Positions 19,582-36,226 of a stretch of 43,843 nucleotides of DNA are shown one piece after another. This DNA comes from a virus, in the IMG/VR virus record IMGVR_UViG_3300031977_002259, positions 1 through 43,843 of that record; one strand, 5' to 3'. The position numbers were made by a program, and so were the translations under genes. Numbering within the stretch: the stretch's first letter is position 1; every line of letters starts with the position of its first letter. Below the pieces are notes generated by a model that saw nothing but the letters and a program-made list of their open reading frames with translations, searched no databases and had not been told where the DNA came from.

Positions 19582-19712
19582 TAGCGATAAGGGGAGTCGA
19601 ACCCCTACCAATCCTCACATCGGTTGCCATAAGCCCGTGGTCACGGGTGGAAGCTTTGTCTATTGGATTGGCGCACACCATCCTCGCATCCTCATGCAAG
19701 AGTGCTATCGCT
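19582..19712 (-). ncRNA. tRNA-like element with acceptor stem, T arm and class-II-type variable arm
   Basis: On the minus strand the ends are perfectly complementary (AGCGATA with TATCGCT, extended to 8 bp by T-A), and the 3' part carries an ideal T arm (AGGGG-TTCGACT-CCCCT, 19606-19590). A hairpin ACCGAT/ATTGGT directly before it looks like a class II (Leu/Ser) variable arm. However the whole is 131 nt, about 43 nt longer than a class II tRNA, and no normal anticodon arm can be placed. Internal hairpins CTTGCAT/ATGCGAG and CCCGTG/CACGGG replace it. It may be an interrupted or degenerate tRNA, or a tRNA mimic. Confidence 0.5.
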
Positions 19713-19722
19713 ATGTATTCTG

Positions 19723-19795
19723 TACCCACGGCAGGATTCGAACCTGCGACCGACTGCTTAGAAGGCAGTTGCTCTATCCCCTGAGCTACGTGGGC
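19723..19795 (-). tRNA. tRNA-Arg (TCT)
   Basis: 73 nt on the minus strand. Acceptor stem GCCCACG with CGTGGGT (G1-T72 wobble), D arm GCTC...GAGC, anticodon arm ACTGC-CTTCTAA-GCAGT with anticodon TCT (19762-19760), T arm GCAGG-TTCGAAT-CCTGC, discriminator A; CCA is not encoded. It reads AGA and AGG, which are frequent in the plus-strand virion genes. Confidence 0.93.
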
Positions 19796-19799
19796 TATG

Positions 19800-19872
19800 T
19801 GCGCCTGGTAGGACTTGAACCTACGACCTGCCGATTATGAGTCGGATGCTCTAACCACTGAGCTACAGGCGC
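19800..19872 (-). tRNA. tRNA-Ile2 (CAT, lysidine type)
   Basis: 73 nt on the minus strand. Acceptor GCGCCTG with CAGGCGC, D arm GCTC...GAGC, anticodon loop CTCATAA with CAT at 19839-19837, T arm GTAGG-TTCAAGT-CCTAC. The core around the anticodon (CGACTCATAATCG) and the D arm are those of bacterial tRNA-Ile2, where C34 becomes lysidine and reads AUA. Elongator Met is therefore unlikely. Decoding would depend on host TilS. Confidence 0.88.
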
Positions 19873-19880
19873 ATGGCGGG

Positions 19881-20010
19881 GGCACCCCTCCCCCTTGCAT
19901 AATTGTGAACAATCCAAATTCACTCGGTTATGCCATCCGACGCAGGGGCCAATCACCTCCCCCGCTTGCATACTTTCACAGGACCCCTCCTGATACGGGT
20001 ATGCCAGCCG
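19881..20010 (-). ncRNA. Tandem pair of covarying RNA hairpins
   Basis: The 147 bp between the tRNAs and the gene ending at 20020 contain no credible gene but two similar units. In plus coordinates, unit A has GCATAA (19897-19902) pairing with TTATGC (19928-19933) and an inner GTGAA/TTCAC stem (19905-19909/19919-19923). Unit B has GCATAC (19968-19973) pairing with GTATGC (19999-20004) and an inner CAGGA/TCCTG stem (19979-19983/19988-19992). The outer pair changes from A-T to C-G and the inner stem changes throughout, while both stay paired: compensatory change. Both units are preceded by C-rich CCTCCCCC. Likely a structured RNA in the early transcript. Confidence 0.6.
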
Positions 20011-20019
20011 CCCACAATG

Positions 20020-20622
20020 TTATACCTCTATGTTCGTTGACACCCACTCATCGAGGGCGTCCTTATCGTTACGTTCTGTGAACTTCAGCATCTGCAAGGC
20101 GTTCTCTGTGTCCTCACGCTTGCGTCCAGCCTCAACTTCAGCACGCCCCGCAGGGTCGTCGGGAAGTGGGTATGGCTCACGACCCTCATCGGTCAATCTG
20201 ATGCGCTCATCCAATGAGTTAGGTGTGAAAGCGTTGATGTGTGATGGACACTGAACGCTGTCGTTTTCTGCGATGTCAAGCATCTTGCTCTTCATCCATT
20301 CACATCTGACAAGGTTCATGTAGATACACCCTCTACCATGATTAAACGTCATCATAATCCCGTAAGTGTCGGGGTCTTCGTTGTTCCTTGTAGCAAGGGC
20401 TTGTGCCTCTCGAAGGAAGTCAGACCAGTAGTGATAAGCACCCACGGGATCCGTAGGTGATACGATGATGGGGTCTTCATCGTTGGCGTAGTAGTAGTAA
20501 CCACTGCTCATAGTGTTGAGGAGGCAGTCGCAGGTGACGATAGACCCACCGAATGTGATGGCTTTTCCGAAGGACTCAGCGAAGGAGCGAGTCGTAGCGT
20601 TGTTGTTGAGTTTGTTGTTCAT
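20020..20622 (-). CDS. Hypothetical protein
   Basis: 200 residues (MNNKLNNNATTRSFAESFGK...). Features seen: AESFGKAITFGGSIVTCDCL near the N terminus, a Tyr-rich stretch SSGYYYYANDEDP, and an Arg/Glu-rich C terminus. The N-terminal FGKAITFGGSIV is loosely similar to FGRTLADGGDTI in the gene at 22203. No family recognised. The Asn-rich start resembles other early genes here; the leader is ACAC-type (GATACAC before ATG). Confidence 0.65.
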   Translation of the reverse strand: MNNKLNNNATTRSFAESFGKAITFGGSIVTCDCLLNTMSSGYYYYANDEDPIIVSPTDPVGAYHYWSDFLREAQALATRNNEDPDTYGIMMTFNHGRGCIYMNLVRCEWMKSKMLDIAENDSVQCPSHINAFTPNSLDERIRLTDEGREPYPLPDDPAGRAEVEAGRKREDTENALQMLKFTERNDKDALDEWVSTNIEV

Positions 20623-22944: not shown

Positions 22945-22977
22945 CAAAGATACAACGACGATTCCCATATTTCCAAA
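22945..22977 (-). promoter_or_regulatory. Early promoter, TTTG-N21-TATCTTTG
   Basis: Minus-strand TTTG (22977-22974), 21 bp, TATCTTTG (22952-22945). Drives the gene starting at 22912 and those downstream; located just after the stop of the gene at 23001. Confidence 0.78.
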
Positions 22978-24125: not shown

Positions 24126-24158
24126 CAAAGATACGTTCACCGATTCGAGAAAACCAAA
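24126..24158 (-). promoter_or_regulatory. First early promoter, TTTG-N21-TATCTTTG
   Basis: Minus-strand TTTG (24158-24155), 21 bp, TATCTTTG (24133-24126). It heads the minus-strand arm and leaves a leader of about 40 nt before the ATG at 24081. Confidence 0.8.
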
Positions 24159-36149: not shown

Positions 36150-36226
36150 CGGCGAGTATCTCCTCAAGCTTATACCTTGTAGAAAGAGTAATCGGTTACA
36201 TGCGGGTTCAATCCCCGCCTCGCCGA
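36150..36226 (+). ncRNA. tRNA-like element upstream of terminase
   Basis: Plus strand. CGGCGAG (36150-36156) pairs perfectly with CTCGCCG (36219-36225), followed by A as discriminator. The T arm is ideal: GCGGG-TTCAATC-CCCGC (36202-36218). A hairpin CAAG-CTTATAC-CTTG (36165-36179) has a 7-nt loop with T at the second position, as an anticodon loop would (TAT), and GTAA-TCGG-TTAC (36188-36199) looks like a variable arm. A D arm is missing. Length 77 nt. Either a D-armless or degenerate tRNA or a tRNA mimic. Confidence 0.5.

Follow-up and report, generated by a model that had tools for sequence, protein, structure and literature searches.

Two related units of inverted repeats stand in tandem directly before the tRNA genes of a marine phage (43.8-kb viral record; the whole 43,843-nt stretch analysed is termed the window), raising the question of whether they are RNA structures maintained by selection and what role they might have there. 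The units, their shared flanks and all four of the stems described in a sequence-only reading of this DNA are present, as is the spacer, which runs exactly from 19873 to 20019 (147 bp) between tRNA(CAU) and the gene ending at 20020, and which both units fill. On the minus strand the order is the upstream gene, unit 2, unit 1, tRNA(CAU), tRNA-Arg(UCU) and a 130-nt tRNA-like RNA (Table 1); as the neighbouring genes and tRNAs all lie on this strand, the relevant RNA is that of the minus strand. The tRNA with anticodon CAU is labelled tRNA-Met by ARAGORN, and is taken here, from its resemblance to E. coli tRNA-Ile2, to be Ile2. Promoter-like sites of Bacteroidota type (TTG-N17-23-TANNTTTG) precede early genes at 24157, 22976, 21172 and 18921 of the minus strand, and point to a probable host among the Bacteroidota; a transcript begun at 22976 or 21172 would cross the units into the tRNAs, a direction that would place the spacer within an early transcript. 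A further promoter-like site, TTG-N-TANNTTTG, lies before an early gene on the plus strand (24984).

Table 1. Features of the spacer and of the genes and RNAs on either side of it, in minus-strand order.
Feature	Position	Strand	Evidence or remark
Upstream gene, 200 aa, function unassigned	20020-20622	-	Homologues in 10 other phage contigs mark the slot
TGGGCGGC, conserved with L003	20007-20014	-	Sequence
Unit 2: TGGCATACCCG-(inner hairpin CAGGA/TCCTG)-AAGTATGC	19968-20006	-	Arms 100% identical in L003
Unit 2 outer stem P2: GCATAC / GTATGC	20004-19999 / 19973-19968	-	
Unit 2 inner stem: CAGGA / TCCTG	19992-19988 / 19983-19979	-	
Unit 2 P3 hairpin: GGGG (19963-19960) / CCCC (19948-19945)	19945-19965	-	Partner helix in L003
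Unit 1: TGGCATAACCG-(inner hairpin GTGAA/TTCAC)-AATTATGC	19897-19935	-	Sequence
Unit 1 outer stem P2: GCATAA / TTATGC	19933-19928 / 19902-19897	-	
Unit 1 inner stem: GTGAA / TTCAC	19923-19919 / 19909-19905	-	
Unit 1 P3 hairpin: GGGGG / CCCCC	19878-19894	-	End 5 nt before tRNA(CAU)
tRNA, anticodon CAU, probable tRNA-Ile2	19799-19872	-	ARAGORN, Rfam
tRNA-Arg (UCU)	19722-19795	-	ARAGORN, Rfam
tRNA-like RNA, 130 nt: 7-bp acceptor, D-like arm, long structured middle arm, T-arm	19583-19712	-	

Each unit follows the plan TGGCATAMCCG, ~23 nt, TATGCAAG and then a G-rich/C-rich hairpin, P3, the 3' arm of which is the C-rich run previously described as a flank; the distance between units is 71 nt, the outer stem (P2) has the consensus GCATAM/KTATGC, and the ~23-nt middles have unrelated sequences. 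The repeated inverted motif exceeds chance, TGGCATA-N20-45-TATGCA having two matches in the window, both in the spacer, against 0.03 expected, with two matches in none of 100 shuffles. The significance of folding against shuffles is modest, with z values of -2.6 and -2.5 for the units alone, -0.6 and +0.1 for unit plus P3, and -0.9 for the whole 147-nt spacer, the energy of which is not exceptional; shuffling the two middles produces a 5-bp inner stem in 2.6% and 7.3% of cases. The units differ by one compensatory pair in P2, and P3 adds one more. A closing helix P1 (GGCGG in TGGGCGGC with CCGCC at 19879-19875) was dropped in the window, where 27% of shuffles match it (4% in the homologue L003, below), and an intrinsic terminator was rejected, P3 being followed by GCCAT and then the tRNA, without a U run.

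The only independent phage with the unit is that of contig 3300031974_002723 (L003), found via the upstream gene, the protein of which is 56% identical; a 65.4-kb contig (L002) is the window phage itself (99.97% identity over 20.6 kb) and so counts as no independent evidence. L003 has a single unit directly before tRNA-Arg(CCU), reading GTGGGCGGCTGGCATACCCG CTTTGTGTCTGTAATCTAA GTATGCAAG and then GGGAGAG...CTCTCCC. P3 occurs in all three units (two in the window, one in L003) with changed letters, GGGAGAG/CTCTCCC in L003; the blocks TTGTGGGCGGCTGGCATACCCG and AAGTATGCAAG (~22 and 11 nt) are unchanged, against ~66-84% identity in coding DNA aligned between the two phages; and the P2 arms are identical to those of the window, with zero changes. 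The inner stem is absent from L003, where the longest Watson-Crick stem in the 19-nt middle is 2 bp and the centroid consists of the outer stem only. Across the three-unit alignment, 2 of 11 pairs are changed on both sides, a count equalled by 66 of 500 shuffles; with these figures, and with L003 lacking the inner stem, the 'hallmark of a selected RNA structure' claimed for the units from compensatory changes in both stems was overstated. The change in the outer stem (one pair) stands and P3 supplies another, while that in the inner stem finds no counterpart in L003; a lack of covariation in homologues, which the sequence-only reading had itself named as counting against it, is in part what the inner stem displays, and the L003 outer-stem arms are unchanged. 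That interpretation is accordingly partly supported, and a selected RNA fold in the units is weakly supported by the sequences compared.

The unit was found in two phage lineages only, those of the window and L003, in four pattern scans of viral contigs (exact patterns, four strictnesses), one genome scan and a covariance-model search, in which the three-unit model, run over 54 related phage contigs, added none to these (best new E 0.34). The other viral-contig matches inspected looked like chance, and most of them lay within coding regions, one being the HNH endonuclease gene of L005; the genome-contig scan gave nine matches, none like a unit with a P3 hairpin; and no further copies occur elsewhere in the window or in the L003 contig. 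blastn of the spacer against phage records returned only matches of ~30 nt or less, none significant; the Rfam 15 matches in the window are the two tRNAs only, with nothing over the units even at E up to 5; and a literature search found no paper describing the tandem unit element.

The same slot was surveyed in relatives with a profile of the upstream gene, which gave 11 contigs: two with units, two with an element containing ATCCGATA, three with a tRNA-like structure and structured stretch, and four with a short spacer. L087 and L097 carry the different conserved element (ATCCGATA...AACTGC); L103 and L148 hold a tRNA-like minihelix followed by a ~170-nt structured stretch, the start of the same arrangement being visible in L286; and within the short-spacer group L131 and L290 have tRNA(CAU), then the ATCCGATA element, then tRNA-Arg, whilst L091 and L291 have short spacers only, with a short hairpin in L091 and nothing in the slot of L291. 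These slot RNAs are unrelated to the window units. Structured stretches in the relatives often leave only 0-5 nt between their end and the next tRNA or tRNA-like structure, and a GC hairpin ending ≤5 nt from one was counted at 9 of 23 early sites versus 2 of 26 terminase-side sites (Fisher p 0.015), a comparison that is supporting rather than decisive since the split was made after the data had been seen and the sites are related by descent. The ATCCGATA-hairpin-AACTGC arrangement stands immediately before a tRNA or tRNA-like structure at L087:1096, L097:3624 and 7928, and L103:2378, with more sites at L131:5840, L148:20, L160:4536 and L290:4651-4784; the element shows compensatory changes (CTGCAG to GTGCAC, for example), may form a CCCC/GGGG pseudoknot, and had no Rfam match in the loci scanned.

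Given the position and strand of the units and the other structured elements in the relatives' slot, an RNA element at tRNA leaders appears the most likely reading. Its function can be proposed only tentatively: the tandem units may, with a likelihood short of even, be a duplicated, lineage-specific structured RNA module of 3'-end/leader type in the early transcript of this tailed phage, capping an end cut by RNase P. Release of a tRNA 5' end requires RNase P, so that a cut at the 5' end of tRNA(CAU) would leave the upstream mRNA ending ~5 nt past the GC-rich hairpin P3, and the hairpins could shield this processed 3' end from exonucleases and/or stop the leader misfolding with the tRNA. Anatomy, strand, position, the single-unit orthologue in L003 and the alternative structured elements of the slot elsewhere form the observed part of this proposal; transcription, RNase P processing and end protection at the spacer are what we infer from it. 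A hairpin abutting an RNase P substrate, by which a 3'-end stabiliser might be recognised, is found in both the window and L003, P3 ending 5 nt before the tRNA in each. Against capping stand the restriction to two lineages, the one compensatory pair in P2, and the slots of L291 (empty) and L091 (only a short hairpin); in L131 and L290 the slot element, sitting between two tRNAs, cannot cap an mRNA.

Elements placed between two tRNAs or tRNA-like structures would be released in the relatives, which favours a rather unlikely alternative in which RNase P defines the 3' end of a free small RNA made from the spacer and acting in trans as a decoy for a protein or host RNA, with duplication raising the dose; one relative also has a hammerhead motif just upstream of its structured element, although the window and L003 have no 5' processing signal between the gene's mRNA and the units. 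The units may instead be a functionless duplication, neutral or decaying, with complementarity inherited from one ancestral hairpin, an unlikely reading that would suit the tolerance of phage tRNA regions for insertions, the rarity of the units and their absence from most relatives, the lack of an inner stem in L003 and the full-spacer z near zero, but which sits poorly with two blocks conserved at ~22 and 11 nt between phages of so much lower coding identity. That the P2 arms are constant between phages and the middle is not, as for a protein-bound palindrome, and that a single compensatory pair can arise by chance, would both fit a DNA-level inverted repeat bound by a phage regulator or by a protein of recombination or replication; the second hairpin P3 with its changed letters, the placement directly before tRNAs in both phages, and the lack of additional copies in either contig argue against such a site, which is unlikely.

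A self-cleaving ribozyme of an undescribed class, in place of the hammerheads of relatives, is very improbable: canonical hammerhead cores precede early genes and one tRNA in those phages, and none occurs in the window by the same scan, but the units match no Rfam ribozyme even at E 5, contain no known catalytic core, and have conserved nucleotides that are mostly helical. A hammerhead proper was rejected for the units, the CUGANGA and GAAA core with three stems being absent from the window in the core scan. Least credible is a coding role, in which an open frame continues in frame past the stop codon of the upstream gene; frame 0 is open in the spacers of both phages, yet it enters the tRNA, no initiation signal was found, and block identity is complete at all codon positions and nil between blocks, giving no sign of protein-level selection in the spacer.

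Several known systems resemble the proposed RNA element in part. In the MALAT1/MEN-beta 3' stabiliser with mascRNA (Rfam RF01684), a structured stretch lies directly upstream of a tRNA-like RNA and RNase P makes the 3' end; the likeness is that of a structured stretch just before a tRNA or tRNA-like RNA, whereas the phage units have no triple-helix sequence, a true tRNA comes next in the window, and processing is here an inferred step, the comparison being one of analogy and not homology. The tRNA-like structures of the relatives matched RF01684 weakly (E 0.056 and 0.076, short of the gathering score). In the tRNA cluster of phage T4, stable RNAs C and D are non-tRNA structured RNAs, and so likewise structured RNAs within a phage tRNA locus, but a search of the phage collection gave no significant sequence match to the present spacer. 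Hammerhead ribozymes found alongside phage genes, and believed to split long phage transcripts into shorter mRNAs (PMC3088659), are also small RNA elements between phage genes, and differ from the units in their hammerhead core and in the Rfam ribozyme match that the units lack. The mini-ykkC motif shares the small repeated hairpins, a tandem architecture read by its authors as suggestive of protein binding (PMC2864571), but the units differ in sequence and are not at the 5' end of a regulated gene.

As a structured element the units are rare, and more interest attaches to the locus than to them. It is the 130-nt RNA at 19583-19712(-), not the hairpin units, that bears the hallmark of selection on pairing, and this is the strongest RNA result. 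It emerged when the sequence outside ARAGORN calls was scanned for an acceptor stem with a T-arm, has neither an ARAGORN call nor an Rfam tRNA match, and was rejected as a canonical tRNA on its middle arm of ~64 nt, as against a 17-nt arm with a 7-nt anticodon loop. Members of the family occur in the window, L092:3790-3918, L116:5672-5799, and L339, L340 and L341 (about 1501-1629). In a MAFFT alignment of the first three, made independently of any model, 32 of 32 pairs are standard and 14 are changed on both sides, none of 500 shuffles being as high, and the covariation collapses once the partner is slid; a model from these three retrieved the other three phages, at E 6e-31, 2e-30 and 2e-27. 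All six match the model at E 1e-27 to 1e-39; in an alignment fitted to it, 97.4% of cells pair and both partners change in 15 of 32 pairs, again with 0/500 shuffles as high. Covarying arms are the acceptor, D-like, middle and T arms; an extra middle-arm helix (columns 56-60 with 92-96) is full in five of the six members and has 3/5 pairs in the window copy, and the middle arm contains a near-invariant core, CUUCYACCC-UUACC-GGG-UUAUGGCAA. This tRNA-like RNA is proposed as a new family, for which an RNase P processing signal and a tRNA mimic are the candidate roles. Another conserved structured stretch is its 3' neighbour in several phages, followed in L336 and L339 by a T-rich run.

The early regions of these phages of Bacteroidota type abound in unannotated structured RNAs adjoining tRNAs, and standard tools miss the 130-nt RNA. 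It is conceivable, if somewhat doubtful, that these phages run a distributed processing of early-transcript RNA, in which tRNAs, anticodon-less tRNA-like structures and hammerheads cut, and interchangeable modules cap or tag the ends or become functional RNAs; with similar reserve, the tandem units would be one kind of module in such a scheme and the 130-nt RNA another. Were tRNA-processing enzymes to cut early transcripts, the phage would have a simple means of fixing mRNA ends with no nuclease of its own.

Other structured RNAs were observed in the window and its relatives. A 76-nt tRNA-like structure, its anticodon loop (CUUAUAC) resembling that of Ile(UAU) but lacking a normal D-arm beside it, lies just upstream of the large terminase gene (window 36150-36225, plus strand), and is conserved in many relatives, including L006, L016-L018, L034-L038 and L055-L060. 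Canonical hammerhead cores, mostly just before early-gene start codons, occur at L116:3203 and 4050, L140:2934 and 3169, L142:2659, L149:2898, 2951 and 3492, L150:1079 and 1452, L153:3770 and 4090, L158:2198 and 3268, and in L104, L106, L110 and L128; that at L116:4050 precedes a tRNA, and matched Rfam Hammerhead_1 at E 7e-4, below the gathering score. Mini tRNA-like structures (acceptor plus T-arm, with little or no anticodon arm) lie between early genes at L131:2878-2927, L290:2436-2485 and L291:714-782, with more at L103:2432-2521 and 6945 onward, L148:4320-4382 and 4547 onward, and L160:4412-4451; the tRNA-His call at L148:74 is probably an ARAGORN miscall of such a structure. A repeat, GTGTATA..CACCTTCTGAGTTTACGAAGAAGGTG..TATACAC, apparently another hairpin module, is found beside hammerhead or tRNA-like RNAs, in L116 at ~4000 and 3' of the tRNA-like RNA in L338 and L341.
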